Below are positions 6,459 to 20,882 of a DNA stretch of 23,070 bases, piece after piece (within the stretch, counting starts at the first letter, position 1; the number at the start of each line of letters is the position of its first letter). Made by a program: the position numbers and the translations under genes. The DNA is from a virus. The stretch spans positions 1-23,070 of IMG/VR virus record IMGVR_UViG_3300035119_000040. The stretch is one strand, 5' to 3'. The notes under the pieces are model-generated. The model saw only the letters and a list, made by a program, of their open reading frames with translations. It searched no databases and was not told where the DNA came from.

Positions 6459-6533
6459 TGGCTCCTCGGGTAGGGTTCGAACCTACGACCGCCCGGTTAA
6501 CAGCCGGATGCTCTACCGCTGAGCTACCGAGGA
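6459..6533 (-). tRNA. tRNA-Asn (anticodon GTT), CCA encoded
   Basis: On the minus strand the sequence folds as a standard tRNA: acceptor arm TCCTCGG/CCGAGGA with discriminator G and encoded CCA; D arm GCTC-AGCGGTA-GAGC; anticodon arm TCCGG-CTGTTAA-CCGGG (one T-G pair) with GTT at plus positions 6499-6501; T arm GTAGG-TTCGAAC-CCTAC. All stems are intact, so it should be functional. It follows the stop of the winged-helix gene (6540) by 6 nt and may be processed from the same minus-strand transcript. Phage tRNAs usually supplement or replace host tRNAs that are scarce or cut by defence nucleases. Confidence 0.96.
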
Positions 6534-6539
6534 TCATAC

Positions 6540-6992
6540 TTATTTGATTCTTGGGATATTGACAATATTAGTTGGCTCCGGACGGCTTATTTCTTTTCGC
6601 GGCTGTTCAACTTCAGGTTCTTTCTGAACCAATTCGAATAAAGTCCGGTTCAGTGTAACCGTAATCTGTTCATCATGAGTTAACTGATTGTAGTCAAATA
6701 TAGTCTCAAGCTCCTTTAATGAACGCCTTGAACCAGATTTTAACCGCCTCTTATTCTTTTCAGACCGTAAAACTTTGCCACTGTCAGTAAGGCGTTGTAA
6801 CCCAAAACCGATTATGGGTTCAAACAGTATCTTATCGTTGAGCAGCACCCTCCTTGCCGAAGTCAGGACACGTTTGACATCAGGCACCGTTGTTTTGGTG
6901 CGCTTTGCCAGTTCAGAATAACTAATGTCATCATTGACACCCCTTAAGATGACAATGACGGCATCAGTCAATTGGGAGCGTTTGAATCTCAC
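6540..6992 (-). CDS. Winged-helix DNA-binding protein (150 aa)
   Basis: Residues about 8-70 have a winged-helix pattern: ISYSELAKRTKTTVPDVKRV (23-42) as the helix-turn-helix, then ARRVLLNDKILFEP and GFGLQRLTDSGKVL as wing and linker. This resembles a family of small phage proteins I know by its 'SARR.LLrd..i.F..v.G.GlkRL.D' signature, of unknown function. Residues 78-93 are strongly basic; the last 30 are Pro/Glu-rich and probably disordered. It starts with GTG at 6992 and overlaps the RAMP-like gene by 4 nt (GTGA), so the two are translationally coupled and may act together. Confidence 0.75.
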   Translation of the reverse strand: MRFKRSQLTDAVIVILRGVNDDISYSELAKRTKTTVPDVKRVLTSARRVLLNDKILFEPIIGFGLQRLTDSGKVLRSEKNKRRLKSGSRRSLKELETIFDYNQLTHDEQITVTLNRTLFELVQKEPEVEQPRKEISRPEPTNIVNIPRIK

Positions 6993-7558
6993 TCAATTAT
7001 GTCCTCAAATTTGATGTTTGTAATTTCATACCGACCATTCAAGCCACCGTTAGACGGCCTGAACTGTCCTACGCCAATTGATCGGCCGGCATACTTGATA
7101 ACCTTGGTGAAGACATCATGATTGATCTTAGGCTCCAAGACCACAAAGCTGGTGACACCCTGCCATTGAGGCGTCTGTGGTAGCGTACGTAAGACACGCT
7201 TACCTGACGTACGGTTCCCATCAACGTGAGCGTTGATCCTGACAAAGCCTATCTCATCCTTTTTGATGCCGATCGACATATTCTGTTCGCAGAATACATC
7301 ACTGACAAAGAACTTGGTGAGGCGAGCCTTCTTTGAATCTGGGTCAGGTATGCTGAGCCGGGTTGCTGCTGCATCTAAGCACTGTTTGAAGGCCATGGCT
7401 GGTACGTAAATAATACCGTTTTCATCGTAATGGCACTTTTCACGCCACGTACGTTCTTCATAAACATCATGGCTTTCACCCTGTTTGAATGGGGTATAAT
7501 GTTGCCTTGACTGGCTGAGGGGAGCCATACCCCGGATACTGACTATCGCTCGATACAT
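6989..7558 (-). CDS. RAMP/Cas7-like orphan protein (189 aa), tentative
   Basis: Three features follow the RAMP (Cas5/6/7) pattern: an N-terminal strand and turn, AIVSIRGMAPLSQSRQ (4-18), like the '...i.G..PL..gs' opening of Cas7-type proteins; a strand-helix IIYVPAMAFKQCLDAAATRL (49-68), comparable to the RAMP 'yiPgSslKgalR.a' segment; and a C-terminal glycine-rich loop GRSIGVGQFRPSNGGLNGRY (158-177), like the RAMP G-rich loop. The rest is mixed alpha/beta. No cas genes are present, so if the fold is right it is a stand-alone phage RAMP. AAAGGAG lies 10 nt before the ATG. Alternatives: a distinct phage fold with a coincidental Gly loop. Its upstream side faces the GTGNN array. Confidence 0.6.
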   Translation of the reverse strand: MYRAIVSIRGMAPLSQSRQHYTPFKQGESHDVYEERTWREKCHYDENGIIYVPAMAFKQCLDAAATRLSIPDPDSKKARLTKFFVSDVFCEQNMSIGIKKDEIGFVRINAHVDGNRTSGKRVLRTLPQTPQWQGVTSFVVLEPKINHDVFTKVIKYAGRSIGVGQFRPSNGGLNGRYEITNIKFEDIIE

Positions 7559-7579
7559 CTGTATTCTACTCCTTTTACT

Positions 7580-8502
7580 TTGTCGTGTTGTACTGTCATG
7601 GAGTGTATCTTGTCATGTCATAGTGTGCGGTGTCGTGTCATGAAGTCAAATCATTTATTAGATATAATCTGCCATTGTAGAATGTTGTGATGTAGCGTCC
7701 TGTGGAGTGCGGTGCCTTATAGTAACGTGTTGTGGTGTCAGAGTGATATGGCATGTCATGGAGTGCAGTGTTGCGGTGTTTCGTGGTGTGCTGTGGTGTG
7801 CTTGTAAAGTTCTGTGTCGTAGAGCTGGCAATCTCTCTAAATTAAATCTGTCGTGACGTGCCTTGTTGTAGAGTGTTGTAGAGTAATTTGTTGTGTAGTG
7901 TGGTGTTTCGTACGTGGGGTGACGTGGAGTGTATTATAATGTAGCGATGTGTCGTGAAGTGTCTTGTTGTGCCGTACAGTGATATGACGTGCTGTATCGT
8001 AAGGGATCATATCGTGTAGTAACGTGTAGTGATGTGTGGTGACGTGATGTATGGTGACGTGATGTGCGATGTACCGTAGAACGTATAACGCATAGACAGG
8101 CAGCCTCTGAGTTTGGTTTAGAGCATTGACGTGTCGTGTTGTGCTATGTAGTGCTATGTAGTGCAGGATTGTGTCTTGTGGTGAAATGTAATGATGTTGA
8201 GTGTAGTTGAGTGTAGTGCGGTGTTGTGTGGTGATGTGCTGTGGAATGCAGTATAGTATAGTGTTGTATCTTATGGGGAAGTGTAGTGATGTGTGGTGAT
8301 ATTGAGTGCAGTGCTGTGTTGTGGAGGTACAGTATAGTGCTGTGTCCTGTAGTGTAGTGCGGCGTCTTGTGGTGAAGTGTCGTGTCTTACGGTGAAGTGT
8401 AATGAAATGCAGTGGAGTGTCTTGATTTTACGGATGGTGTATGGTGGCGTGAGGTGCGGTAAGATATTGTGTCATGACGTGACATGTTGTTGTGTGATGT
8501 GT
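7580..8502. repeat. Degenerate 5-nt-period array (GTGNN)n, about 920 bp
   Basis: The stretch has no gene on either strand. The plus strand is G/T-rich and follows a 5-nt period. From 7921 to 8070, 22 of 30 consecutive pentamers end in GT in one phase. From 8131 to 8325, 24 of 39 begin GTG in one phase and 5 more begin ATG. From 8341 to 8425 the phase shifts by one and GTG recurs in the same way. The other two bases vary freely. The phase slips a few times, mostly at AT-richer interruptions (about 7646-7680, 7821-7853, 8076-8130). The minus strand is correspondingly (NNCAC)n. It lies between two minus-strand gene groups and would be transcribed on read-through. Confidence 0.9.
7620..7649 (-). 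promoter_or_regulatory. Weak candidate minus-strand promoter inside the array
   Basis: In the first AT-rich interruption the minus strand has TTGACT (plus 7644-7649) and, 18 bp on, CACTAT (7620-7625), preceded by an A/T-rich upstream stretch. The -35 is close to consensus, the -10 poor. It would drive the RAMP-like, winged-helix and tRNA genes. Confidence 0.25.
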
Positions 8503-8512
8503 AAGCAGAACT

Positions 8513-8544
8513 TAATTGACAGAACCACTAATTGACAGAACCAC
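8513..8544. repeat. 16-bp perfect tandem duplication
   Basis: TAATTGACAGAACCAC occurs twice in direct succession (8513-8528, 8529-8544). The second copy encodes the last codons and stop of the 8528 gene; the first repeats the same sequence beyond the stop. Confidence 0.85.
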
Positions 8545-8761
8545 TTGGTCCTAATGGTGGTTCATAACTGAATTTACCTTTACATTTAGGGCAATGCCAC
8601 AAGGCAGGCTCATTGATCTTCATCAATTGTGTATGTAGGGTACCACAAAATACACATTTAGGTGGGTTATCCCTTAAAAAGTTCTGTCTTTCTAAGATGT
8701 AATCCATGTTGTCAAGGATTTCTGTTAAGCCTGCAAGCATTTGTTTTCCAGCTTTGCTCAT
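8528..8761 (-). CDS. Zinc-ribbon protein (77 aa)
   Basis: Two CxxC pairs, CVFC (36-39) and CPKC (57-60), are separated by 17 residues and form a typical rubredoxin-like or zinc-ribbon metal site. The N-terminal 30 residues form a single amphipathic helix (LAGLTEILDNMDYILERQ). The start ATG overlaps the end of the dCTP-deaminase-like gene (ATGA). Small zinc ribbons of this kind in phages often bind nucleic acid or modify transcription, but no specific role can be assigned. Its last residues and stop come from a tandem duplication. Confidence 0.75.
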   Translation of the reverse strand: MSKAGKQMLAGLTEILDNMDYILERQNFLRDNPPKCVFCGTLHTQLMKINEPALWHCPKCKGKFSYEPPLGPSGSVN

Positions 8762-9219
8762 GCCTGTTCCAATATCGCTTTGATGGGTTTGTCAGGCTGG
8801 TCCTGATATTTGCCTGCATAAGGCATATCAGTCGGCTCATCCAATAGCTCAAAAATGACTTGTGCTATTGGATCACCTTTATGTAAAAACTGCTTATCCT
8901 TACTTTGATTGGTAATTTCAAGGGTTAGGTACCCCCTCCACCCCGGCTCAGCAACAGTATTCTGTACAAAAATACCCCGACGAGCCCAGGTACTTTTATC
9001 ACAAATACGCATCAGCAGATGTGTTGGTAGATCAAAACATTCTACAGATGATGCTAAGGCGAATTCACCAACTCTCAACATGAGGTCCTGGGCTATCCGA
9101 ATGTCATAACCGCAAGATGATAAACCATAGGTCAAACCGGATTGCGTCTGTTGCTGGCAGACAAAGGGTTTGATAAGGTATTCGCCGTAGCGGCGAATTG
9201 ACTGCGCGCTTAAGATCAT
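8758..9219 (-). CDS. dcd: dCTP deaminase-like protein
   Basis: From the ATG at 9219 the 153-residue product carries the dCTP deaminase/dUTPase-fold signatures in order: SCGYDIRI (35-42), DKSTWARRGIFVQ (74-86; compare DKSSLARxGL), EPGWRGYLTLEI (91-102, including E101 in the position of the catalytic Glu), KGDPIAQVIF and YAGKYQDQ near the C-terminus (compare Y.GKYQGQ). The family converts dCTP to dUTP, feeding dTTP synthesis or base-modification pathways. It is shorter than the usual 185-195 residues. GGGGGG lies 6-7 nt upstream of the start, and the stop of the preceding phosphoribosyltransferase gene overlaps it (TAATG). A dUTPase or bifunctional activity is possible. Confidence 0.85.
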   Translation of the reverse strand: MILSAQSIRRYGEYLIKPFVCQQQTQSGLTYGLSSCGYDIRIAQDLMLRVGEFALASSVECFDLPTHLLMRICDKSTWARRGIFVQNTVAEPGWRGYLTLEITNQSKDKQFLHKGDPIAQVIFELLDEPTDMPYAGKYQDQPDKPIKAILEQA

Positions 9220-9575
9220 TAAATCCCCCCAAAGTGCCATATAGCCTTGACCCATGGCGGGACTGGTCCTCGGGCAAACATGCAGATGCCCAAGGCGTCA
9301 CGGCCATCACGCAGCTCTTCCATTGAATTGCCAGTGGTCACAACATCTTCAGCAATGAGCAGGCGGCCACCTTCTTGACTGTACTTGGCAAGGGCCGTTG
9401 CAAAACGTAGGCCACCCCGCATGACAGGTTGCACTGTGCCGAAGGGCGGCAGCATCTTAACTGCTATGTGGGCCAAGGTTTGAATAGATTCATCGGTCAG
9501 GGCAGCGCAGTCGATGATCCAATCGGTATGTTGCCCCGAATGAAGAACGAACGTTCCTGATTTAAACAGACTCAT
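9219..9575 (-). CDS. Phosphoribosyltransferase, OPRT-like (118 aa)
   Basis: The N-terminus FKSGTFVLHSGQHTDWIID (4-22) matches the orotate phosphoribosyltransferase opening 'F.SG.F.LhSG..S..yiD'. LLIAEDVVTTGNS (72-84) is the PRPP-binding loop shared by type I phosphoribosyltransferases. At 118 residues it is about half the size of PyrE and lacks the middle part, so it may be a minimal phage version or act on another base. These enzymes join a base to PRPP or catalyse the reverse. AAGGT precedes the ATG, which directly follows the stop of the preceding gene. It lies in an operon with dCTP deaminase-like and PLP-enzyme genes, suggesting nucleotide metabolism or modification. Confidence 0.8.
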   Translation of the reverse strand: MSLFKSGTFVLHSGQHTDWIIDCAALTDESIQTLAHIAVKMLPPFGTVQPVMRGGLRFATALAKYSQEGGRLLIAEDVVTTGNSMEELRDGRDALGICMFARGPVPPWVKAIWHFGGI

Positions 9576-9869
9576 TTAGATTACCTTTTTAGTGTTGTAG
9601 TAGATGTGCCCATTATACCAATAAATACTATTTCCATCATTGAAGACAGCGCCTTTTGGGCTGAGTGCTTTATCTAAATCTTTCTGAAGGAGCATATTTT
9701 TATATCTTAATTGATATGCTCTGCTAGAGACTTGAGATACGAAATGACCAAACATACGACAGGCAACCATGTCGGTTTTATATAAATATTCTTTAAGTAT
9801 AGAAATAGATTCCTCTAGATCAGTACCGTACTTTTCCCCTTCATCTGGGTTAGCTGGTATGAATGCCAT
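9576..9869 (-). CDS. Hypothetical protein (97 aa)
   Basis: The start at 9869 (MAFIPANPDEGEKYG) gives a 20-nt overlap with the end of the PLP-enzyme gene, which is compatible with coupling. A longer frame extending to 10052 is rejected because it would overlap 200 nt of the well-supported PLP gene. The N-terminal half is helical (LEESISILKEYLY) and the C-terminus ends SIYWYNGHIYYNTKKVI, a beta hairpin-like segment. I do not recognise it. The next gene starts immediately after its stop. Confidence 0.6.
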   Translation of the reverse strand: MAFIPANPDEGEKYGTDLEESISILKEYLYKTDMVACRMFGHFVSQVSSRAYQLRYKNMLLQKDLDKALSPKGAVFNDGNSIYWYNGHIYYNTKKVI

Positions 9870-10722
9870 TGGGTCCGGTCCATATGCTGAATACTTTTTG
9901 ACAGTCTTCCGGCATAGCCCTAACAGGGCGCAACCCTGGTGGCCAAAATAGATCGCCCTCTTTACAGAGTAGCCATGACTTAGCGGCATAGAATGGATCG
10001 AGGGGCGTCCCATCAGGCAGTATGTCAATGATATACTTATCGTATGGCACACTAGGTGGAATGAATTCTATAGGTCCAAGATTACTATTTTTATCGGGCA
10101 AATAGCGGGTTGCTAGGGTCATGATATTGGTTGCGCCGGTCATAGGTGACGTAGCCGCAACAACCACCTGTATGCCCGTCCCAGCGGTGCCTATGAGTAC
10201 GCCAGCGGCCGTTAGACCGCTACCGCTGGGCACTATAATGCGTTTAATGCCCGGTGGCAGGTTGACGCATTGCTTGGCAGTATCGAGTATGGCCAATGGG
10301 CGATCCCACTGCACCACGTCTTTTAAATCAACGACTCGTTGTCGGGTCTTCTTGCGCACAACGCTCAGGTATCCGGGGCGTACTTCGTTTATCTCAGCGC
10401 CCATTTGTTCGCAGTATTTAGTGGCGGCAGTGCGCTGTGCCCGCGCGGGCACATAGATGATTGCCTTAGTTTTTAGAAGTTTGGCAGTGGCCGCTACATA
10501 AATTTGTTGTGCGCTGTTGGCGCTGCAACCAACAATGCATGGCGGCTCTTTGCCATTTTCATAAAAGCCATTTATCCATTCCACACCACCGGCCATATGA
10601 AAATATTGACGAACCTTGGAACCCGACGGATATTCAAGGTCTGTCCAAAACGCCAAATCTTCCCGTTTAACATATACACCGTTTAACTCATGAACTGGTG
10701 TAATGTTTGGATACAGTGCCAT
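9850..10722 (-). CDS. PLP-dependent enzyme, fold type II (290 aa)
   Basis: The sequence matches the tryptophan-synthase-beta superfamily, closest to the ACC deaminase/D-cysteine desulfhydrase group: VYVKREDLAF (17-26), YPSGSKVRQY with K36 as the candidate Schiff-base lysine, GCSANSAQQIYVAATAKLL (65-83; compare GxxSNHxxQxAxxAAxxG) and the phosphate-binding loop VPSGSGLTAAG (164-174). The catalytic core is complete, though at 290 residues it is shorter than the usual 320-340. Such genes recur in phages; PLP enzymes are known in some phage thymidine-hypermodification pathways, but fold type II members there are not established, so the substrate is unknown. AAGG lies before the ATG, and the upstream gene ends one base before it. 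Confidence 0.85.
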   Translation of the reverse strand: MALYPNITPVHELNGVYVKREDLAFWTDLEYPSGSKVRQYFHMAGGVEWINGFYENGKEPPCIVGCSANSAQQIYVAATAKLLKTKAIIYVPARAQRTAATKYCEQMGAEINEVRPGYLSVVRKKTRQRVVDLKDVVQWDRPLAILDTAKQCVNLPPGIKRIIVPSGSGLTAAGVLIGTAGTGIQVVVAATSPMTGATNIMTLATRYLPDKNSNLGPIEFIPPSVPYDKYIIDILPDGTPLDPFYAAKSWLLCKEGDLFWPPGLRPVRAMPEDCQKVFSIWTGPNGIHTS

Positions 10723-10723
10723 G

Positions 10724-10942
10724 TCAGCCTTCTATTGTACGTGGCGGGTCGCTTTTTAATTTTTCAATGAATTCTTTTGCTTCTTTTTCGCTTTTAAAAA
10801 GTCCTTTGCAATCGTTATACCCACCAAACTTGCGTTGCCATACGAAATAGCCTGTGCCAGTAAATTCGATATAATAAGTATCTAATTTACTTACATGCCA
10901 TATGACTAATATGATAACAGTCGCTAAGATTACAAAAGTCAT
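10724..10942 (-). CDS. Small membrane-anchored protein (72 aa)
   Basis: Residues 2-17 (TFVILATVIILVIWHV) form one N-terminal membrane helix. They are followed by a soluble domain of about 50 residues with beta strands and a final helix (YYIEFTGTGYFVWQRK ... FKSEKEAKEFIEKL) that resembles a small DUF1508/SPOR-like beta-alpha unit. AGAGATTAAGT precedes the ATG. It sits 1 nt from the PLP-enzyme gene. Function is unknown. Confidence 0.65.
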   Translation of the reverse strand: MTFVILATVIILVIWHVSKLDTYYIEFTGTGYFVWQRKFGGYNDCKGLFKSEKEAKEFIEKLKSDPPRTIEG

Positions 10943-10944
10943 AC

Positions 10945-11178
10945 TTAATCTCTTCTGTTGACGTTATTCAGCCTATCACAGACTTCATCAAGTAAAGGAA
11001 ACGGATCAAACCCCGGAGGGAAGTATAACGTACCCTCAAGGTTAGAAAAGCCCGTTCCCTTTTCGCGGTAATTGATTCTGAAACGCCTCCAGCCTTTCAT
11101 GCTGTATCCAGGTACTGCACTAGATTGGAGTATTTCTTCTGTCGTATCTACGTGTGATATCTCATAGACTTTAGTCAT
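10945..11178 (-). CDS. Hypothetical protein (77 aa)
   Basis: A small mixed alpha/beta protein beginning MTKVYEISHVDTTEEIL and ending in a helix LLDEVCDRLNNVNRRD. It overlaps the upstream gene by 4 nt (ATGA), so expression is coupled. I do not recognise the family. Confidence 0.6.
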   Translation of the reverse strand: MTKVYEISHVDTTEEILQSSAVPGYSMKGWRRFRINYREKGTGFSNLEGTLYFPPGFDPFPLLDEVCDRLNNVNRRD

Positions 11179-11423
11179 TCAGACGCTTCCGGCTTTGTGG
11201 TGCTTTCCCATGCGTAATCCCATTCCTGTATTAAGAACATGACGCAGTGCCACTCTTTGGTACGGTCAGAATCAAACTCCTTGAAATCAGGTGGCGGGCG
11301 GATAAGCCCCGCCCCCTCAGTGTAACCAAGGGACGTCAAGAACTGGTAAGGCCCACTGTCATCAATAGGATCACCGAAGTATTCATTCATCAGGTTGCGG
11401 AGTTCGGCTGTTGCTTCAGGCAT
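11175..11423 (-). CDS. Hypothetical phage protein (82 aa)
   Basis: The product starts with a helix (TAELRNLMNEYFGD) and contains GPYQFLTSLGYTEGAGLIRPP. This is similar in feel to small phage proteins with a 'Y.FL...Gy' segment followed by a Pro-rich turn; no function is known to me. GAGGTAGGG directly precedes the ATG and is a strong ribosome-binding site. Confidence 0.65.
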   Translation of the reverse strand: MPEATAELRNLMNEYFGDPIDDSGPYQFLTSLGYTEGAGLIRPPPDFKEFDSDRTKEWHCVMFLIQEWDYAWESTTKPEASE

Positions 11424-11463
11424 CCCTACCTCACGTCATTGGTCCGGGGTGATGCAGTGACTT

Positions 11464-12207
11464 TCATCCCCAATGCTTTCTATGTGCTTCTACCATGAAC
11501 TTATTGATGACATCTTTATCAACTTTGAGGTCACAACACGTATTGATTAATGTACGTAAATAGTTTTCGGCCGTTTCTATAAGTTGTAATACTTCACTAA
11601 GGGATTTATTACCAAGACGCACATTGCGCAGCAATGTTAAAGGAGGTTCTTCCATAGGCAGGCTTAGATGCTTATTTTGAAGGAGTTCAATACCTTGAAG
11701 ACCCAGACGCAAGGCGTGCATAGCAAATTTTGTATCGTAGCCATATTTTTCAACAAGTTCGGGGCGGCTGACTTTAGGCGAACTTTCGCCTTTCAAGCGC
11801 GCTTTTTGCGCACGCAGATAACCCAGGAATCGTTTGCCTGATTCCTTGCTAATAAACTGATGTCGTAGATTGATGAGTTGGCGTCCTATATCTGTCTCAG
11901 TTGTGTAGGAAGGCAACCACAACAGAAGGATGACACTGGGATTACCTGCTGTAGCCAGCCTACAAAACTTGCGCAGGCTATACATGGTCAGATCAAGATC
12001 GCCCGGTTGGCTGCGTACGCCATCAGGTTGATCCCGTTGTATTAGGTGATCTATTGGACTAAGACCGCATACGGCTTCGGGCGGTTCTATAAATATGCCC
12101 ATTTCGTCACGGTCATCTTGACCTTCGATCGCTAAACCATGCACGGTAGAACCAACTACCCCACGCAGGATTGTACTGTCAAATATCAATTCATTTCTTA
12201 CTGACAT
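11464..12207 (-). CDS. Predicted nucleotidyltransferase (247 aa)
   Basis: The N-terminus has the polymerase-beta-type nucleotidyltransferase signature: GVVGSTVHGLA (16-26) with the GS pair, followed by DDRDEMGIFIEP (31-42), where D32/D34 would bind metal; the later block DLDLTMYSLRKF (71-82) supplies the third acidic strand. The all-helical C-terminal half (YGYDTKFAMHALRLGLQGIE, 155-174) is typical of the YcgL-type family of predicted nucleotidyltransferases found in bacteria and phages. The family probably transfers a nucleotide to a protein, RNA or small molecule; the target is unknown. It begins at the base after the stop of the gene upstream and is the first large gene of the minus-strand operon. 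Confidence 0.85.
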   Translation of the reverse strand: MSVRNELIFDSTILRGVVGSTVHGLAIEGQDDRDEMGIFIEPPEAVCGLSPIDHLIQRDQPDGVRSQPGDLDLTMYSLRKFCRLATAGNPSVILLLWLPSYTTETDIGRQLINLRHQFISKESGKRFLGYLRAQKARLKGESSPKVSRPELVEKYGYDTKFAMHALRLGLQGIELLQNKHLSLPMEEPPLTLLRNVRLGNKSLSEVLQLIETAENYLRTLINTCCDLKVDKDVINKFMVEAHRKHWG

Positions 12208-12414
12208 TTACGTTGCCCATTTATGCCATCGGCCATCGGGGTATTGAATAGCGAAACTTCCTTGACCCTTTAATTGTTCTACTTTGGTCAAAGCTAAAGT
12301 TAGGCTAGAACACTCGCCCACCACTACACTGTCCTGGCCTTCTTGGGTGCAGTGTATCTTGTATTTGCCTGAGGGTTTTTTCCCATTTCTGATAAAATGC
12401 CGTTGTCCCATCAT
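12208..12414 (-). CDS. Hypothetical protein (68 aa), first gene of the minus-strand operon
   Basis: The preferred start is ATG at 12414 (MMGQRHFIRNGKKPSG), with AGGTG 4-8 nt upstream; the second ATG at 12411 is equally possible. A TTG at 12441 is rejected because the promoter predicted at 12450-12479 would place the transcript start almost on it. The protein is a small beta-rich unit (YKIHCTQEGQDSVVV ... GSFAIQYPDGRWHKW). No family is recognised. Confidence 0.6.
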   Translation of the reverse strand: MMGQRHFIRNGKKPSGKYKIHCTQEGQDSVVVGECSSLTLALTKVEQLKGQGSFAIQYPDGRWHKWAT

Positions 12415-12449
12415 GGGGCACCTGATACTAAGTTTGTACAACCCCTTAT

Positions 12450-12479
12450 ATTATACGGTTTTTTTAATTAATGGCTCAA
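12450..12479 (-). promoter_or_regulatory. Promoter for the minus-strand operon
   Basis: The minus strand has TTGAGC (plus 12474-12479), an 18-bp spacer and a perfect TATAAT (plus 12450-12455). This is the best sigma-70-type match I see in the window. It lies in the 76-103 bp divergent gap between the minus operon and the NusG-like gene. Transcription would begin near 12443. Confidence 0.7.
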
Positions 12480-12517
12480 CAGCTTATTGCGATTTAACAT
12501 ACAGAAGGAAATCGCAG

Positions 12518-13027
12518 ATGTCTTATTGGGCTGTGGCAATGACAAAGGCGGCATCTGAGCGCATAGCTCAGTTCAATTTAGTACGTCAAAATTTTGAGAC
12601 GTACTTGCCTAGGTATATTACTAGAATAGGCAAAGAAATTAAGGTAAAAATATTATTTCCAAGATACATATTTGTCCGAGTAGATTTACAATGGCACTCA
12701 ATTAATGGTACTAGAGGGGTCACCAGACTTATCATGAATGAATCGAAGCCAGCCCAGGTTCCTGAGCGGATCATAACTGATTTAAAATCAAAGGAAGATC
12801 AAAAGGGCTTTGTCATGCTTCCAGCACCATTGAAATTTAGAAAAGGTGAAACACTGAGAGTTGTCAAAGGTCCATTGGAAGGGTATATTGCCATTTATGA
12901 TGGAATGCGCCCTAATGAAAGGGTGCGCGCTCTAGTTCAAATGTTAGGCCAGTCCGTTCCAGTTGAACTGGATGAGGGGGATCTGGCAGCGGTAGCCGTG
13001 ATTAAAGAGGATGAAGTTGAATTATGA
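12518..13027 (+). CDS. NusG/RfaH-family transcription antitermination protein (169 aa)
   Basis: The NGN domain (1-90) has the expected order: YWAVAMTKAASERIAQFNL, FETYLPRY (26-33), ILFPRYIFVRVD (45-56) and GTRGVTRLI (64-72). After a linker, the KOW motif spans about 108-131 (FRKGETLRVVKGPLEGYIAI), followed by NERVRALVQMLGQSVPVEL as in alphaproteobacterial NusG paralogs. Such proteins bind the RNA polymerase clamp and suppress pausing or termination. AAGGA lies 9 nt before the ATG at 12518; a longer frame from 12284 would run across the divergent gene and promoter. It is the first gene of the late plus-strand block and overlaps the cold-shock gene by 4 nt, so an antitermination role for late genes is a reasonable inference. 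Confidence 0.88.
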   Translation: MSYWAVAMTKAASERIAQFNLVRQNFETYLPRYITRIGKEIKVKILFPRYIFVRVDLQWHSINGTRGVTRLIMNESKPAQVPERIITDLKSKEDQKGFVMLPAPLKFRKGETLRVVKGPLEGYIAIYDGMRPNERVRALVQMLGQSVPVELDEGDLAAVAVIKEDEVEL

Positions 13028-13248
13028 CAGATCCAGTTCAAGTAAAAGTACGCGGCACGGTGAAGTGGTTTTCAGATGAAAAAGGATTTGGATTTTTAAT
13101 GTGTGAAGGAGTTGGTGTGGATGTATTCGTTCACAAACAACAACTTCAAAAATCAGGCGTCGATGACATTAAAGAAGGCGATCGTATTACCTGTGTGGTG
13201 AACAAAGGCATAAAAGGCATGTATGCCACATTGATAGCTAAAGACTAA
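13024..13248 (+). CDS. csp: Cold-shock domain protein (74 aa)
   Basis: A complete cold-shock domain: GTVKWFSDEKGFGFL (11-25, containing the RNP1 aromatic patch), DVFVHKQQL (33-41, RNP2), and EGDRITCVVNKGIKGMYATL at the C-terminus. Length is normal for the family. These proteins bind single-stranded RNA/DNA, melt RNA hairpins, and some bacterial members act as transcription antiterminators. It overlaps the NusG-like gene by 4 nt (ATGA), implying matched expression and possibly a shared function. Confidence 0.93.
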   Translation: MTDPVQVKVRGTVKWFSDEKGFGFLMCEGVGVDVFVHKQQLQKSGVDDIKEGDRITCVVNKGIKGMYATLIAKD

Positions 13249-13499
13249 TGACCGTTAGATGGTATCATTATATTATATATAATCTCAGACTGAGATTATG
13301 CATCTATAAGGTGCAAAAACTATTTGACAAAATCCTTACCAAACTTAAGTTAAGAAAAGAAGAACCAATTCATATTTATTGGACCGGCAAGATGTATCTA
13401 TCAAATTCTTATATAATTGCAACTCTTATAAAGGACGACGACGATGCCCGTAGGTCCGACACGCACCAAAGCTCAAAAACAAAAAGTCGTCCATACTGA
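13248..13499 (+). CDS. Doubtful small basic protein (83 aa)
   Basis: The ATG shares its A with the stop of the cold-shock gene (TAATG), a typical coupled start. The product is basic and aromatic (MTVRWYHYIIYNLRLRLCIY) with no recognisable domain. Its last 56 nt overlap the well-supported DUF6496 gene, and the composition of that tail (HQSSKTKSRPY) looks like a shadow of it. It may be real only in its first two thirds, or not at all. Confidence 0.4.
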   Translation: MTVRWYHYIIYNLRLRLCIYKVQKLFDKILTKLKLRKEEPIHIYWTGKMYLSNSYIIATLIKDDDDARRSDTHQSSKTKSRPY

Positions 13500-13626
13500 G
13501 ATGCATAAGTTCAAGCATGGGCAGCTCCATTCAGGGTCTAAAAAAGGGCCGCTTGTAAAAAGTAGAAAGCAGGCAATAGCCATTTCACTTTCCGAATCAG
13601 GCCAGTCACGAAAGAAAAAGGATTAA
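13444..13626 (+). CDS. DUF6496-like small basic protein (60 aa)
   Basis: The core VVHTEMHKFKHGQLHSGSKK and the tail KSRKQAIAISLSESGQSRKK follow the DUF6496 pattern (V..vM.eFk.GkLHSGS..GP.V..rkQAIAIalsEA..skk). The family is short, highly basic and found in many bacteria and phages, with no known function; it may bind nucleic acid. AAGGACG lies about 10 nt before the ATG. It precedes another low-complexity protein by 4 nt. Confidence 0.8.
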   Translation: MPVGPTRTKAQKQKVVHTEMHKFKHGQLHSGSKKGPLVKSRKQAIAISLSESGQSRKKKD

Positions 13627-13630
13627 AGTT

Positions 13631-14158
13631 ATGGGTAAAGGGACTGTTACCAAAGGCTCATCGGTTAAATACGGTTCAGGCCAATATGATTCTACACCTC
13701 ATGGTGGTAAAGGCAAAGAACAGAAGCTTTTGCCGCCAGCGGCTGGGGAAGGTTACAACAAACCTACGCCTCATACCAATGAAGCTACAGTAAGGGATGG
13801 GGTTGAAGGTAAAGGAAGCCGTAAGCGCGGCTATCAAATGGATGCTCACAGTGGTTTATACCACGGTCCAAAAGGTGAGGCTGTAGGTCATAGCAGCGAT
13901 CTCAGACCTATGGAATACGATCATCCGCTCTACAGTGAAGGTGGGGAAGGCAAAGAAGTAGGTAATGTTGGTACTGGCCGTCATCATTCCGAAGGTTCAG
14001 GTAAAGCTGAACATCACCCGCCAGCTCCAAAGACAGCCCATATATTCCCTACAACTGGTTCTGCTGGTGCACATGGTTTTGGGCATACAGGCAGTCAACG
14101 CCAAGGCGTGCTGCGTATGTCAGGGCATACAAAAGGGCACCAAATAGGGAAGCGGTAA
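13631..14158 (+). CDS. Gly/His/Lys-rich low-complexity protein (175 aa)
   Basis: The whole chain is rich in Gly, His, Lys, Ser and Pro with no hydrophobic core, for example VTKGSSVKYGSGQYDSTPHG at the start and GHTKGHQIGKR at the end. Recurring units are 'GGKGK', 'GEGK' and 'HSS/HHS'. It is predicted to be disordered and positively charged, so nucleic acid binding or virion internal packing is possible. Position between DUF6496 and the terminase genes suggests a late gene. No family is recognised, and function is open. Confidence 0.65.
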   Translation: MGKGTVTKGSSVKYGSGQYDSTPHGGKGKEQKLLPPAAGEGYNKPTPHTNEATVRDGVEGKGSRKRGYQMDAHSGLYHGPKGEAVGHSSDLRPMEYDHPLYSEGGEGKEVGNVGTGRHHSEGSGKAEHHPPAPKTAHIFPTTGSAGAHGFGHTGSQRQGVLRMSGHTKGHQIGKR

Positions 14159-14208
14159 TCCTAAATGTTAAGATGGCTTCGGGCCAAATCAGTTGAGGTT
14201 AGAAACTA

Positions 14209-14808
14209 ATGGGCGGTCCAGGAAGTGGGCATGGTACTAAAAGGCCAGATCATCCAACTGGTGTTTTGACCAAGGGCATACCAAAGACTTATTCGCAACA
14301 ACGTAAACATTTAAAATCGTTGTTTTCGGATAAGCCTGATCCAAGCTGCTATGGTCATAAAAGGGAACGTGACCGTATGGCAGGCTTGCCTGATTATGGA
14401 AAGGCTACCCTTGATAGGGCAAAGGAACGGTATGAGCGTGACTCGGAGCTTAAAATGTTTGAGGAAAATCGTCGTAAAGCGATTGCTTTAGAAGCAAGGG
14501 ACTTACAAGATCTTGCTCGTCAGATGGCAACTAAGGCTATGGGGGCCTTAGTTGCCATATTGGATAATCCAGACTCAGCCGACTCTGCCAAACTGCAAGC
14601 TATTCAAATGTTATGGGATCGGGGCTATGGCAAGCCGGCTGCTACAACGGTTAATATAAATCAGAATATGGATGCAAAGCCAAGTCAGTTAGATGCTGAA
14701 TCTTTGGATAAACGGATTGCAGATACTCTCAATCGGGTTGAGAAGCTTACGAGAGAATCATCTGAAGATGGTGACAAACGTCCTACTGATATCCGCAAAT
14801 ATAATTAA
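14209..14808 (+). CDS. Terminase small subunit-like DNA-packaging protein (199 aa)
   Basis: The N-terminus is basic and flexible (MGGPGSGHGTKRPDHPTG), followed by a charged helical region. The core MATKAMGALVAILDNPDSAD, then AKLQAIQMLWDRGYGKP (about 127-143) is the helical segment I associate with small-terminase-like and other packaging proteins placed just before large terminases ('Al..L..i..dp.asa.arv.Aa..iLdRgwGkP'). The C-terminal helix ADTLNRVEKLTRE could oligomerise. It precedes the large terminase by 44 nt. Small terminases recognise viral DNA and regulate the large subunit. Confidence 0.7.
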   Translation: MGGPGSGHGTKRPDHPTGVLTKGIPKTYSQQRKHLKSLFSDKPDPSCYGHKRERDRMAGLPDYGKATLDRAKERYERDSELKMFEENRRKAIALEARDLQDLARQMATKAMGALVAILDNPDSADSAKLQAIQMLWDRGYGKPAATTVNINQNMDAKPSQLDAESLDKRIADTLNRVEKLTRESSEDGDKRPTDIRKYN

Positions 14809-14852
14809 CTTCATTCTAATACACAGGGCTGATAAAGCTTTCATTACGCAGA

Positions 14853-16502
14853 ATGTTAGATGATCCAACGAGTGAATTAAAAACCCTCTCAACAGAGTTG
14901 AGGGGGTTACAAACTGAACGCCTGAAAAGGCAGAGGGCAAGAAGTGATCTTTTGACCTATGCCTCGTCAATTGACATACCGGGTGCCCCTGCTAATACTT
15001 CTATTGAAGAAAAGGAAGAATTTGTACCAATAAGGAGTGCCTTTGGTAAACATCATGTTTTATGGCTGAAATGCCTTCAAGATATTGAAGACGGTAAAAT
15101 CAGACGCTTAATGGGTTTGATGCCGCCAGGAAGTGCAAAAAGCACCTATTCTAGTATTGTATTTCCTACTCATTATTTGGGGCGATTCCCCGGCAGAGCA
15201 ACAATTGTTGCATCCTATGGTAGTGACCTTCCTAAAAAATTCGGACGCAGAGCCAGATCGGTTGTAAGGCAGCCTATCTATAAGCGTATTTTCAATACTG
15301 AGTTATCTCAAGAGAGCCAAGCCGTAGATGAATGGACACTTACCAATGGCAGTGAATGGATTGCTATGGGTATTGGAGCCGGCATCACTGGCAACCGCGT
15401 TGACGGTGTTATATGGGATGACTTAATCAAAGGGCGTGAACAAGCCGATTCTAAAACTATCAGGGATAAGACGTGGGATTCATATATTAACGATTTGATG
15501 ACCCGTAAAAAGCCGGGTGGTTGGGAAGTTGGCATTACTACCAGATGGCATGAGGATGACCCGGCCGGTCGGATTTTACCTCTTGATTACAATGGTGAAT
15601 CAGGTTGGATTAAAGGTCAGGATGGTAATGACTGGTATGTAGTTTGTTTGCCGGCTGAAGCCGAACGCGAAGACGATATTTTGCAGCGTAGTATAGGTGA
15701 TGTACTTTGGCCGGAATGGTTTAGCAAAGAACATTTTGCTCCATTCAAATTAAATTCACGAAGCTGGGCTGCTCTATTCCAACAACGCCCTGCACCTGAA
15801 ACGGGCAACTTCTTTCAGGTTGAATGGCTCAGACCTTATGGTGAAGGTACTCGTTTATCACTTCCTCACCGTGATACTTTACATATTTATGGTGCCAGTG
15901 ACTATGCTACGACTGATGAAGGCGGCAATTACACAGTTCATATCGTAGCCGGTGTAGACCCTGAACATAATATTTACATACTTGATCTATGGCGTGAAAG
16001 AACTTCATCAGATATTTGGGTCGAATCGTTCTGTGATTTAGTCAAAAAATGGCGACCACTAGGTTGGGCTGAAGAAACTGGGCAAATTAAATCAGGTGTA
16101 GGTCCATTTTTAAATAGGCGTTTGATGGAGCGCCATTTATATATTGCCCGTGCTGATTTTCCAGCTAGGGGTTCAAAAGAAACTAGGGCACAGTCAATCA
16201 GGGGCCGTATGGCTATGGGTAAAGTTTATTTCCCCATATCCCAGCCATGGTTCCATGAACTTAAGCGTGAACTTTTGAATTTCCCGGCTGGTAAAACTGA
16301 TGACCAAGTTGATGCGTTGGGTTTATTAGGTCAAGTTTTGGATAAGATGATTTCAGGTCACCCATTGTTACCGGACCCTGAAAAGCCAAAAATACTTTCT
16401 ACAGATCCAAATGAGTGCACAGTTACATTAACTGACTTGTTTGAAGATAATGAAAGGCGTTATGATAAAATCAGACATCAAAGAAAAGTAAGGATAGCCT
16501 GA
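14853..16502 (+). CDS. terL: Terminase large subunit (549 aa)
   Basis: The ATPase part has a Walker A motif GLMPPGSAKST (88-98), a Walker B strand GVIWDDL (185-191, with the catalytic acid at its end) and GITTRWHEDD (227-236) as the motif III-like segment. The C-terminal nuclease has IYGASDYATTDEGG (345-358, first metal-binding Asp) and TDDQVDAL near residue 480. The length is normal. Together with portal and small terminase it packages DNA into the prohead. The ATG at 14853 lacks a strong ribosome-binding site, and a stable hairpin (14882-14908) starts 27 nt after it, which could modulate translation. The stop overlaps the next ATG by one base. Confidence 0.95.
   Translation: MLDDPTSELKTLSTELRGLQTERLKRQRARSDLLTYASSIDIPGAPANTSIEEKEEFVPIRSAFGKHHVLWLKCLQDIEDGKIRRLMGLMPPGSAKSTYSSIVFPTHYLGRFPGRATIVASYGSDLPKKFGRRARSVVRQPIYKRIFNTELSQESQAVDEWTLTNGSEWIAMGIGAGITGNRVDGVIWDDLIKGREQADSKTIRDKTWDSYINDLMTRKKPGGWEVGITTRWHEDDPAGRILPLDYNGESGWIKGQDGNDWYVVCLPAEAEREDDILQRSIGDVLWPEWFSKEHFAPFKLNSRSWAALFQQRPAPETGNFFQVEWLRPYGEGTRLSLPHRDTLHIYGASDYATTDEGGNYTVHIVAGVDPEHNIYILDLWRERTSSDIWVESFCDLVKKWRPLGWAEETGQIKSGVGPFLNRRLMERHLYIARADFPARGSKETRAQSIRGRMAMGKVYFPISQPWFHELKRELLNFPAGKTDDQVDALGLLGQVLDKMISGHPLLPDPEKPKILSTDPNECTVTLTDLFEDNERRYDKIRHQRKVRIA
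14882..14908 (+). promoter_or_regulatory. RNA hairpin in the first codons of terL
   Basis: AACCCTCTCAAC (14882-14893) pairs with GTTGAGGGGGTT (14897-14908), with one G-U pair and a 3-nt loop. There is no U-tract, so it is not a standard terminator. It spans codons 10-18 of the gene. Confidence 0.5.
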
Positions 16503-16846
16503 TGATTCCGAAACTGTACGTTACATGCTATCGTGATATGGCTCGTGATAGCAACAATCAATTGGTTGGCGCACCTTTAACTCCTCCAATTGCAGAACAA
16601 ACTATTGACATTACGCATGAATCGATTGCTGGTGCTCAATTTCCACCTCACACAAGATTTATATGCATCAAAGCTGAAGCTGATTGTTGTTTAGCTTTTG
16701 GGCAAAATCCTATTGCTGATCCGAATTTTCATTTTATTGATGGTGGTGAACGCATTTTCTATGGTGTGCACGAAGGACATCAAGTTGCAGTAGTTGATTC
16801 TACAATCAGGGATGCACAACATGGTATCAATGATGGTGAGCGGTAA
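16502..16846 (+). CDS. Small head-associated phage protein (114 aa), function unknown
   Basis: The layout KLYVTCYRDMARD - LTPPIAEQTIDITHESI - THTRFICIKAEADCCLAFGQ - FIDGGERIFYGVHEGHQVAVV is a mostly beta protein. I recognise this pattern from small proteins placed between terminase and portal or capsid genes, often thought to be virion components or decoration proteins. It is coupled to terL by a TGATG overlap. Its 3' end overlaps the next gene by about 26 nt. Confidence 0.7.
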   Translation: MIPKLYVTCYRDMARDSNNQLVGAPLTPPIAEQTIDITHESIAGAQFPPHTRFICIKAEADCCLAFGQNPIADPNFHFIDGGERIFYGVHEGHQVAVVDSTIRDAQHGINDGER

Positions 16847-17354
16847 GCGCAAATCTTTGATGGATTTGCTATTATCAGATCCCGATAAATTTCAAGCACA
16901 ATTAAAAGCGCATGATAATGCGGTCACTGCCCGTACGAAAGCGGGGGAAGAATATAATCAGCGCAGAGCTGATGCCATTAAAACAATGCAAGACCTTGCT
17001 GAAAAGCAACTCGCTTTTGACATACGCGAAAAACAGATAGAAACGTCTGAAAAACAATTGATGGAATGGGAGCAGCAATTATCCAGAAAGGAAGCTGAAT
17101 TACATAGACAGGAAAGATTACTTGAAGGCATAAGGCAACAAGCCGATCTTCACAAGGAGGCAGTTAATCAGAGCTGCCGGCAACGTGAAATGGAAGTGGC
17201 ACACAAAGCCGAACAAGTCAGGCAACGTGACCAAGCGTCTGAAGCTAAAGCTGTGGATATAGATAAAAGATATGCAGCATTAGTTTCACGTGAAACATTG
17301 GTATCTGAACGTGAAAAATTCATACTAGATGTGGCCCATAAACTGAAATCATAA
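16821..17354 (+). CDS. Coiled-coil phage protein (177 aa)
   Basis: Residues about 30-150 form a long, charged coiled coil (RADAIKTMQDLAEKQLAFDI ... ISRKEAELHRQERLLEG-type heptads rich in Gln/Glu/Lys). This resembles an internal scaffold or adaptor-like phage protein. The start at 16821 is preferred because AGGGA lies 8 nt upstream; other in-frame ATGs at 16794, 16830, 16833 and 16860 are possible. Its stop overlaps the portal ATG (TAATG). The position between terL and portal suggests a role in head assembly or DNA injection, not proven by sequence. Confidence 0.75.
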   Translation: MVSMMVSGKRKSLMDLLLSDPDKFQAQLKAHDNAVTARTKAGEEYNQRRADAIKTMQDLAEKQLAFDIREKQIETSEKQLMEWEQQLSRKEAELHRQERLLEGIRQQADLHKEAVNQSCRQREMEVAHKAEQVRQRDQASEAKAVDIDKRYAALVSRETLVSEREKFILDVAHKLKS

Positions 17355-20338
17355 TGGCAGACCCAGCAGATATTGGTATTGGCGATCAGCCCGATAAGTC
17401 CAAACCTAAATACTTAAAGGTAGACTTGGACCCATTGGCTGGGCCTGATGGCGGGGCTATGAGCCGCAGACTGGCATCGTTCTGGATTAATCAAGTTATT
17501 GATGTAGATGACGACCGTGAGTTCAAACGTTGGCTCAAGCGCGGTACTACGATTGAAAAACGGTACAGGGATGAACGCAGCCGTGTAGATGAAGAAGGTC
17601 AACGGCACGTTAATTCACTTTGGGCTAATGTTGAAATACTTACACCAGCTCTTTATGGAAGGCCGCCAGTTCCTGTATGCGAACGTAGGTTTAGGGATAA
17701 AGATCCGGTAGGGCGCGGTGCTGCTCAAATGCTTGAGCGTGCTCTTAGGAATGAAATGGAAATATGCGGCTTTGATGAATCAATGCGTCAAGCTTTGCGT
17801 GATTATCTATTACCAGGGCGTGGTTCAGTTTGGGTAAGGTACGAACCTGAATTTGGTGAAGGGTCATCAATTCCAACTGATGATGAAATGGATCAGACCG
17901 ATTCTCAAGGTCCGATTGAATCCCCTGATGAATCTGAAGAGGAAGAAAAATTAAGGGAAACTGGCATCCGAGTAACACGGGAATCAACACCTGTTGATTA
18001 CATTCAATGGACTGACTTTTATACATTCCCATCAAAAGCACGTATATGGAAGGAAGTTACTGCTGTAGGTAAGCGGGTTTATATGACTCGTGAGCAAATG
18101 AAGAGGAGGTTTGGCGATGAAATTGGCCGAGCTATACCTTTTCAGAAGGATGATCGCAGGACTCGCCGCCAGGAGGATTCGGCGCATGGCCATGCGATTG
18201 AGGAAAAAGCACAGATATTTGAAATATGGGATAGAACCAAAGAAGAAGTCGTATGGATTGCTGAAGGGTATCATTACCTTTGTGACCGTAAAGACGATCC
18301 CCTCAAACTTGAATCTTTCTTTCCATGCCCCAAACCCTTATACGCTAACCCTACTAATAATACTCTGGTACCTGTGCCTGATTTTATACAGTATCAAGAC
18401 CAGGCAATTCAGATAGATGAATTAACCCAGCGCATTTCTATGTTAGCTAAAGCCTGTAAAGTTGCCGGTGTTTACAATTCGGCAGCTAAAGGTATCCAAC
18501 GGTTATTTAATGAGTCTGTTGAAAATGAAATGATCCCAGTCGATGACTGGGCAGCTTTTGCTGAGAAAGGCGGTATAGCCGGTAACCTCAGTTTTATTCC
18601 GCTTAAAGAAATAATGGGAGTTATTGAAGAGCTTACTAAAATAAAAGAACGTGCTCTTATTGAGATGGACCGCCTTACTGGTATTAACGATATTATGCGT
18701 GGAACGACTGACGCCCGTGAAACTTTGGGTGGGCAGCGTCTTAAATCAAATGCTTCAGGTACAAGGCTTCAAGCGCGTCAGAATGAAGTTGTCAGATTTG
18801 CACGTGACGTGTTGAAGATCATGGCCGATATCATGTGTCGGCATTTCAGTGCTCAATCGCTCATAGAAGTATCTGGGGCTCTCTATGAGCAAGGTCTGGG
18901 CACTATGGATGTAGCTACACATGATATGTTACTTCAGACGGATTTGCCTTCTGGACCTGTGACAGAAGGTCAAGGCGGTTATCCAACGTCAGGTTTGATT
19001 GGCACCTCCTCCGTGCCAGGGGGACCGGGTGGCAGTGGTGTAGGTCCAGGCAGCGTACCACCAAGGCCGCCCGGTCCAGTCCCCCCAGGTCCAATGCCTC
19101 AAATGCCAGGGGGCATGCCCCCAGGAGGTATGCCCGGTGCGCCAATGCCAGGAATGCCGCCAACTGGCCTTACCCCAGGAATGCCCTCAATTCCAGGTGC
19201 TCAGCCCCCTGGACCGCCACCTATTCCAGGTCTCCCAGCTAGGCCAACGCCACCTGCCGCGCCAAGTTTTGGCTTCCAGGGACGTATGCCCCCTAATAAT
19301 GCACCTTCAAACCCAGGTCTGCCTACTGAACTAATAGATAAAATACAGGGCTTTGAAAGAATTGCCAGATCAATACGCCTTATTAGGGATGAGAAATTAT
19401 TAGGGTTTAGAGTTGAAATTGAAGTTGAGTCGACAATATATGCTGACACTCAACAGGAAAAGGCTGACAGAACAGCATTTATAGCATCAGTCACCCAGTT
19501 TCTTCAACAGAGCATGGTGATTGGTGCACAATTGCCTCAAGCAACACCATTGCTCGGAAAATTCCTCCAATTTGGAGTTAGAGGTTTTAACATCGGACGC
19601 GAGTTAGAACAAGCCATTGAGGATTTCTGTGATGAGGCTGTGGTAGCTGCTAAGATGCACCAACAGATGGCACAACAGATGCCAAATCCGATGCAAATGA
19701 AAGCCCAGGCCGATATGATGAAAGCCCAGGCCGATATTCAAGGGCAGCATTTTAAGATACAAAGTGACCAACAGAAAGCCCAGGCTGAGGTCCAACGGCA
19801 GCATATTGAAAATCAGGGTGAATTACAGAATTCGGCAGCCGATACACAGCAGAAACAGCTTGATATGCAGATGCGTCATATGGAGATGGAAATTGAATTA
19901 ATCCGACTTCAAATTGAAAAGATGAAAGCACAAGCCCAGCTCCAGACTGAAGGGTTAAAGGCACATACGGCACAACAACAATCAGTAATGGATCAACATA
20001 AATCAGTCTTAGATATGCAGGGTATGCATATGCAACATGCGCAGGATCAGCAAAAGATGCAGATGCAGCGTGAAGAGCATGACCATAATATACAAAGTAT
20101 GGGCATGGAGCATAATCAAGAACAGCAAAAGATGCATCAGCAAGGTCTATTTGACCAGCAAAAGTTGTACGCACAACAACAGCAACACGATCAAGATCTG
20201 CAAATGCAGCGCGAGCAACAGCAGCATGAAATTGAGCAGGGCCGCGTAGAACATAATCGAAGTATGGAACAAGGCAATATGCAGCATAAGTTGGCTAGGG
20301 CAAAATTGAGTGCAGCCAACAAGCCGAGAAGCCAATGA
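17354..20338 (+). CDS. Portal protein, P22-like, with a long C-terminal extension (994 aa)
   Basis: The first about 540 residues match P22/podovirus-type portals in overall order: FKRWLKRGTTIEKRYRDE, SLWANVEILTPALYGRPP (about 88-105), LLPGRGSVWVRYEP (about 152-165), WTDFYTFPSKARIWKEV (about 220-236), and GINDIMRGTTDARETLGGQR (about 440-459). A Pro/Gly/Met-rich linker of about 100 residues (553-655) follows, then a further segment, and then a Gln/Met/His-rich coiled coil with repeated MKAQAD units from about residue 765 to the end. The portal forms the dodecameric DNA channel and docks terminase; the long helix may be a barrel extending into the head. The final part of the gene is repetitive and could be variable in length. 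Confidence 0.92.
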   Translation: MADPADIGIGDQPDKSKPKYLKVDLDPLAGPDGGAMSRRLASFWINQVIDVDDDREFKRWLKRGTTIEKRYRDERSRVDEEGQRHVNSLWANVEILTPALYGRPPVPVCERRFRDKDPVGRGAAQMLERALRNEMEICGFDESMRQALRDYLLPGRGSVWVRYEPEFGEGSSIPTDDEMDQTDSQGPIESPDESEEEEKLRETGIRVTRESTPVDYIQWTDFYTFPSKARIWKEVTAVGKRVYMTREQMKRRFGDEIGRAIPFQKDDRRTRRQEDSAHGHAIEEKAQIFEIWDRTKEEVVWIAEGYHYLCDRKDDPLKLESFFPCPKPLYANPTNNTLVPVPDFIQYQDQAIQIDELTQRISMLAKACKVAGVYNSAAKGIQRLFNESVENEMIPVDDWAAFAEKGGIAGNLSFIPLKEIMGVIEELTKIKERALIEMDRLTGINDIMRGTTDARETLGGQRLKSNASGTRLQARQNEVVRFARDVLKIMADIMCRHFSAQSLIEVSGALYEQGLGTMDVATHDMLLQTDLPSGPVTEGQGGYPTSGLIGTSSVPGGPGGSGVGPGSVPPRPPGPVPPGPMPQMPGGMPPGGMPGAPMPGMPPTGLTPGMPSIPGAQPPGPPPIPGLPARPTPPAAPSFGFQGRMPPNNAPSNPGLPTELIDKIQGFERIARSIRLIRDEKLLGFRVEIEVESTIYADTQQEKADRTAFIASVTQFLQQSMVIGAQLPQATPLLGKFLQFGVRGFNIGRELEQAIEDFCDEAVVAAKMHQQMAQQMPNPMQMKAQADMMKAQADIQGQHFKIQSDQQKAQAEVQRQHIENQGELQNSAADTQQKQLDMQMRHMEMEIELIRLQIEKMKAQAQLQTEGLKAHTAQQQSVMDQHKSVLDMQGMHMQHAQDQQKMQMQREEHDHNIQSMGMEHNQEQQKMHQQGLFDQQKLYAQQQQHDQDLQMQREQQQHEIEQGRVEHNRSMEQGNMQHKLARAKLSAANKPRSQ

Positions 20339-20562
20339 GCATTTTTAAATCAATAATGGAAACTGTCTGTGACAAAAAGTTTGGCACAATAGGCTACAGC
20401 ATTTCAGAATGGTATGTTCCAAACACTAATACTATGAATTATACGGTTCAATATCAAGGCGAGACAAAGCAGATAACAATACATGGAATAGCTGACATAG
20501 AATATTATGGTGGATCGGTTGGAGCGGTTATGAGGTCAGAGCTAGATAAGGAATTTCCGTAA
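20335..20562 (+). CDS. Hypothetical protein (75 aa)
   Basis: It overlaps the portal stop by 4 nt (ATGA) and the next start by one base (TAATG), so it is coupled on both sides. The protein is a compact beta-rich unit (YSISEWYVPNTNTMNYTVQY ... ITIHGIADIEYYGG). I do not recognise it; position suggests a small head or connector component. Confidence 0.65.
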   Translation: MSIFKSIMETVCDKKFGTIGYSISEWYVPNTNTMNYTVQYQGETKQITIHGIADIEYYGGSVGAVMRSELDKEFP

Positions 20563-20870: not shown

Positions 20871-20882
20871 GGAATGTTGAAC

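Follow-up and report, generated by a model that had tools for sequence, protein, structure and literature searches.

A pentameric array beside a RAMP-fold gene of an uncultured phage very probably encodes the guide RNAs of a VIPR system

Introduction

Between positions 7580 and 8502 of a 23,070-nt viral contig (IMG/VR record IMGVR_UViG_3300035119_000040, positions 1 to 23,070; hereafter the window), a degenerate pentamer, GTGNN, recurs throughout an intergenic stretch. What purpose does such an array serve? A sequence-only reading of this DNA proposed a long binding track for a repetitive nucleic-acid-binding partner, on RNA or on DNA, and knew of no described phage element of this form.

That last statement has been overtaken by a bioRxiv preprint of 2026 on VIPR, the Viral Interference Programmable Repeat (PMC13142463). 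In its account, Vipr is a RAMP protein thought to predate CRISPR, and its guide RNAs (vrRNAs) are composed of 9-16 YNNGG repeats and a 3' tail. The fixed triplet of each pentamer serves as scaffold and the variable dinucleotide holds the target information; when the NN pairs read double-stranded DNA, a single base is skipped from each pair to the next, and rival elements are silenced (PMC13142463). The preprint allows ‘a related consensus’ besides GGY and mentions staggered overlapping arrays, and it reports RNA expression, RNP formation, DNA binding and silencing for other VIPR members (PMC13142463). VIPR is a proposed viral CRISPR ancestor with a guide code unlike that of other known RNA-guided systems, known from this one preprint.

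This work identifies the locus as a VIPR system of the described kind, which differs from the described clade in its triplet (CAC) and in its array format. By computation we characterize the array and, linked to it, vipr and a vap1-like gene; the RAMP fold; the conserved linkage of arrays to vipr across about 90 phages; and the one-base-skip code of a sister clade. The array matters because it extends a gapped two-of-five code to an uncultured phage family: together with about 90 relatives, the locus widens VIPR to uncultured phages with CAC, CGC and GAC triplets.

The array and its blocks

The periodicity claimed for this stretch is real. In an autocorrelation of 7580-8502, identity at lag 5 was 0.493, against 0.289 ± 0.017 in 300 dinucleotide-preserving shuffles (z = 12.4); it was high at lags 10, 15 and 20 as well, and depressed at lags 4, 6, 9, 11 and 14. 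The period-5 index averaged 0.22 within the array versus 0.004 ± 0.024 in the rest of the contig, where it reached 0.11 at most. The pentamer count given earlier for 8131-8325 (24 GTG of 39, plus five ATG) was reproduced exactly; the one given for 7921-8070 (22 of 30) was not, the best fixed phase yielding 17 GTG of 29 and two ATG.

A cyclic HMM divided the array into four long blocks with, in total, about 160 pentamers. In the block profile, G (.77), T (.94) and G (.74) precede two near-uninformative positions; the triplet is degenerate, being conserved at 74-94% per position. The linkers between the blocks are non-periodic and 24-54 nt long, and a few phase slips occur as well. Read on the minus strand, which is that of the adjacent vipr gene, block A (8127..8502; ~75 CAC-NN pentamers, GTG-NN on the plus strand) would be the first array block to be transcribed. 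The non-periodic linker A/B (8073..8126), a gap in the HMM path that follows ...CACGACACGT, is possibly a 3' tail or processing region. Putative vrRNA block B (7849..8072, ~44 pentamers) ends in ...GTCACGACA and is separated by an AT-rich linker (7825..7848) from block C (7675..7824), which has ~30 pentamers and two phase slips; a second linker that is AT-rich in the sense sequence (7647..7674) leads to block D (7581..7646, ~13 pentamers). Block D ends in ...CAACACGACA and adjoins the vipr ribosome-binding site, the array lying just upstream of it. CACGACA recurs at block ends in the window, where the blocks are long and discrete invariant ends are not clear; neither discrete units of 9-16 repeats nor clear 3' tails were resolved in this array.

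The non-coding nature assigned to the array is borne out by stop codons, of which each plus frame has 21-26 and each minus frame 7-8. Open stretches of up to 196 codons on the minus strand arise because CACNN contains no stop. A decayed gene with codon structure, which the sequence-only reading had named as the finding that would overturn it, was rejected: every frame has stops, and there is no codon signal beyond that of the stop-poor CACNN. A known RNA family or a hammerhead was likewise ruled out, as the only Rfam match in the window is a tRNA and 12 related loci gave none. Promoter and terminator scans returned chance-level matches only. A perfect 16-bp tandem duplication of TAATTGACAGAACCAC is present at 8513-8545, bordering the array operon on its upstream side.

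The adjacent operon

Downstream of the array on the minus strand, a ribosome-binding site (AAGGAG, 7569..7574) read in the sequence 10 nt before an ATG opens a gene of 189 codons (6989..7558), which, from profile and structural model, is predicted to encode the RAMP/Cas7-fold protein Vipr with a G-x-GxxRPxxGGxxGR loop. The protein matches phrog_4652 (2.1e-12), of which SUSP1 Vipr itself is a member (322.8 bits). When the profile of family A1 was searched against the PDB, one informative entry was obtained, namely 36pp, ‘SUSP1 Vipr protein’ (E 1.2e-6); the A1 alignment of 25 proteins has an invariant core and a G-x-GQFRPxNGGxxGR loop. The similarity is remote and emerges by family profile, a comparison of the window Vipr with SUSP1 Vipr as single sequences giving no match. 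The AF2 model of Vipr (pLDDT 92) has as its best Foldseek matches in the PDB type VII Cas7, Csm3 and Cmr subunits (E 3e-7, probability 1.0), and a viral structural match carries the annotation ‘Cas system-associated RAMP superfamily protein’.

The start of the next gene (6540..6992, minus strand) overlaps the vipr stop. It is predicted to encode a 150-aa winged-helix protein of the vap1 type, based on family linkage, profile and AF2 model. This family adjoins vipr at 103/124 loci, its profile matches SUSP1 vap1 remotely (32.8 bits), and the model (pLDDT 91) is a confident helical, winged-helix-like fold with weak MarR-like winged-helix matches. Among the neighboring proteins scanned, no cas gene was recognized, one weak and partial Cas5_IIId match (16.7 bits) aside.

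The wider surroundings are a tRNA-Asn(GTT) (6459-6533), a dCTP deaminase (8758-9255), an RlaP-like nucleotidyltransferase (11464-12207), a NusG-like antiterminator (12284-13027) and a cold-shock-like protein (13024-13248). Genes for a terminase and a portal are also present on the 23-kb contig; among isolated phages, those of Bradyrhizobium and Myxococcus come closest in the portal, with up to 37% identity. Another record (IMGVR_UViG_3300047310_000484), 99.2% identical to window positions 9764-21620, represents the same phage and stops short of the array.

Linkage of arrays to vipr across phages

The sequence-only reading had suggested searching related phages for (GTGNN)n arrays. An IMG/VR scan for (GTGNN)5GTG yielded 119 stretches, and by HMM many of these have long arrays, the clusters of which are spaced by about 600-700 bp. 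At one of these loci (L055), the arrays flank a homologue of the window gene 6989-7558, and an iterated profile search located vipr in about 30 array loci, with arrays directly on its flanks. Within these contigs of 4-20 kb, arrays lie at the ends of vipr, downstream as well as upstream, and almost nowhere else.

A second set was seeded with the Vipr protein alone, two scans giving about 97 vipr loci of which 93 were examined. A period-5 index of at least 0.16 was found within 2.5 kb of vipr at 92/93 loci (median 0.32), as against 6/83 in the same contigs beyond 3.5 kb of vipr and a comparable signal in 2/80 terminase relatives without vipr; these counts are not independent, because loci overlap and share ancestry. 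Throughout, the dinucleotides are near-random while the triplets are conserved.

The loci most like the window are three from uncultured IMG/VR phages (L332, L333 and L334), whose Vipr is 61-66% identical to that of the window and which have CAC-NN arrays on the vipr strand and a vap1-like gene. Their arrays lie on both sides of vipr, whereas that of the window is upstream only, since vipr and vap overlap. A direct search for close relatives with the window vipr or dCTP deaminase gave none, and tblastn in isolated phages gave none for the window clade and two remote matches for another clade. Vipr was found in 2/337 sampled genomes from the class of a Rhizobium genome and in 0/321 from that of a Paraburkholderia genome; a pattern scan of bacterial genomes found repeats, but these were without vipr.

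Guide code and targets

Guides of all loci were decoded with skips of 0-3 bases against 2.9 Mb of array-masked phage DNA. Matches of at least 18/20 numbered 101 at skip 1, 26 at skip 0, 34 at skip 2 and 45 at skip 3, versus 47 for shuffled guides at skip 1, all of these counts being inflated by redundancy. With a stricter per-guide score over all guides the skip-1 excess is modest, and some top matches at skips 3 and 2 are arrays matching themselves or their own contig.

The signal is clear in a sister clade (L352-L354). When the guides of these three phages were compared with each other's genomes, scores of 19, 19, 18 and 14 were reached at skip 1; skips 0, 2 and 3 gave no score above 12, and none of 25 shuffles exceeded 14. 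The three best targets are in the coding sequence of an SNF2-type helicase gene just downstream of vipr, and in each case the guides fit the phage's own copy of this gene worse than the copies of its rivals (18 vs 21 and 20; 20 vs 25; 23 vs 25 and 24). The one-base-skip code thus holds in this clade, with guides onto genes of rival phages. A guide from another locus, L286, matches 22/24 positions in the L280 codons for LIPSVTNVLGM, downstream of vap, and the skipped base is the wobble position. With these results the one-base-skip rule has been checked computationally, and independently, beyond the two characterized clades; they also suggest that phages direct guides to genes next to their rivals' own VIPR loci. 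The helicase reading frame itself includes short CGC-NN arrays (L352:5196-5255, L353:8578-8647, L354:2222-2305), which are read through in frame (L352 ORF 4291-5799); the in-gene guide of L354 matches the homologous L352 site, close to L352's own in-gene array.

For the window guides, best scores equaled those of shuffles in the same 2.9 Mb and in 0.95 Mb of terminase relatives. When IMG/VR was scanned twice for exact matches to window guides of eight dinucleotides, 2 and 16 were obtained, at or below chance, and the dinucleotides flanking these matches provided no convincing extension. The window array may be partly decayed, as its degeneracy would allow, or the DNA searched may not include its targets.

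Strand of the RNA

The sequence-only reading left two transcripts open, GUGNN from the plus strand or NNCAC from the minus strand. Across loci, the fitted triplets on the vipr strand are CAC, CGC, GGC, GAC, GGT and a few others; that of the window is CAC, with CGC, GAC, GGC and GGT in related loci. This triplet ends in a pyrimidine before NN at 123/124 loci. The GGT-NN repeats of SUSP1 also lie on the vipr strand, and on that strand invariant GCAACGCAACG and a T-rich end come after the variable repeats of L352-L354, as in vrRNA tails. Because of this Y-NN strand agreement, the SUSP1 strand and the 3' position of the invariant ends, the array RNA is probably minus-strand (CAC-NN)n, and the plus-strand option is the less likely of the two. 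Arrays inverted relative to vipr at a few loci (L261, L262 and L324) keep this assignment short of proof.

Could the locus be a VIPR array whose guide is instead the plus-strand GUG-NN RNA, antisense to vipr and expressed from promoters of its own? GUG resembles the G-rich GGY, the inverted arrays would fit, and at one locus (L068) the GTG strand is the vipr strand. We nevertheless regard this as unlikely, given where the SUSP1 repeats sit, the shared pyrimidine before NN on the vipr strand, and unit ends (GCAACGCAACG and T-rich) that are 3' of the variable part on that strand only. Moreover, the arrays fill gaps between same-strand genes, which leaves little room for opposing promoters.

Guide array or binding track

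Two further explanations do without guides. TRAP, an 11-mer RNA-binding ring, recognizes triplets that recur about every 5 nt, its site consisting of 11 (G/U)AG triplets. By analogy, the array could be a track for a TRAP-like regulator or a ssDNA-binding protein, with the triplets as signal, NN as filler and autoregulation of the downstream gene as outcome; the period of 5, the position directly upstream of the vipr ribosome-binding site and the RNA-binding fold of the partner all agree with this. Yet that partner is a RAMP homologous to a protein that is RNA-guided by experiment, no TRAP-like protein is encoded in the window, the triplet is GTG/CAC in about 160 repeats, and arrays also occur downstream of vipr. 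Filler, furthermore, would not decode onto rival genes at a specific skip as the sister-phage dinucleotides do; the variable letters carry information. We consider such a track very improbable, and the TRAP-like, RecA-like, packaging and replication roles raised by the sequence-only reading found no support. Its binding track was right in kind, as the repetitive partner, Vipr, is encoded next door; it erred in leaving the varying bases as filler, since in VIPR these hold the target information. Both the strand of the RNA and the letters that bear information are hereby corrected.

A microsatellite that grew by slippage and then decayed by mutation, without function, had already been dismissed, and we agree in giving it practically no weight. 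Some pure pentamer arrays do exist without vipr, at L032 and at bacterial genome loci (8-kb), as such an origin would predict. Slippage produces identical units, unlike the conserved triplets and near-random NN seen here, and would not explain arrays kept beside vipr at 92 of the 93 protein-seeded loci with differing triplets.

Proposed mechanism and comparison with known systems

Taken together, the period-5 array very probably encodes the guide RNAs (vrRNAs) of a phage VIPR system with vipr and a vap1-type gene. It would be transcribed with these two genes from the minus strand, probably as (CAC-NN)n. The small protein Vipr, with its Cas7/RAMP fold, is expected to polymerize on this RNA with one subunit per pentamer, holding the fixed CAC and exposing the variable NN. 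Successive dinucleotides would pair with double-stranded DNA in the pattern NN-x-NN-x-NN, one base being skipped between pairs, which would silence genes of rival phages with the assistance of the winged-helix Vap. For the window phage, we infer the RNA strand, the unit boundaries and the targets.

The closest described system is the type II VIPR of Escherichia phage SUSP1 (PMC13142463, PDB 36pp). Both are phage-borne, with a RAMP-fold vipr beside a vap1-family gene and pentamer arrays of fixed triplet and variable NN in adjacent intergenic DNA. They differ in the triplet, GGY in SUSP1 versus CAC on the vipr strand in the window, and in format, four ~100-nt units with structured tails versus ~160 pentamers in four long blocks. 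With class 1 CRISPR systems (type VII Cas7, Csm3, Cmr) the locus shares the fold of the backbone subunit, whereas in the window the period is 5 rather than 6, the guide is gapped, the array shows no CRISPR-type repeat-spacer structure, and no other cas gene was recognized among the neighbors. A doubtful but conceivable extension is that in the window phage and its close relatives the VIPR code takes the form of a long, continuous CAC-NN ‘tape’ of ~160 pentamers, with a non-GGY triplet and no discrete units, and that many overlapping guides, aimed at the VIPR neighborhood of rivals, could be cut from it or read in any register.

Other repeat arrays

One long, simple array of pentamers (CTGTG/CTTAT), located where a phage contig ends (L032:9760-10190) and not accompanied by vipr, is truly microsatellite-like. 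In L010 (1900-2700) and L021, a regular GACGCCGAG element occurs among GTG-rich repeats; no match to phrog_4652 was obtained for the L010 record. Four arrays beside vipr (L244, L250, L243 and L252) consist of units of ~60-70 nt cut by a conserved GGAAA(A) on the GTG strand, which is TTTTCC on the vipr strand and, in L244 and L250, adjoins invariant CGACA pentamers. This element probably marks the boundary of units, or forms their tail, in another VIPR subtype.
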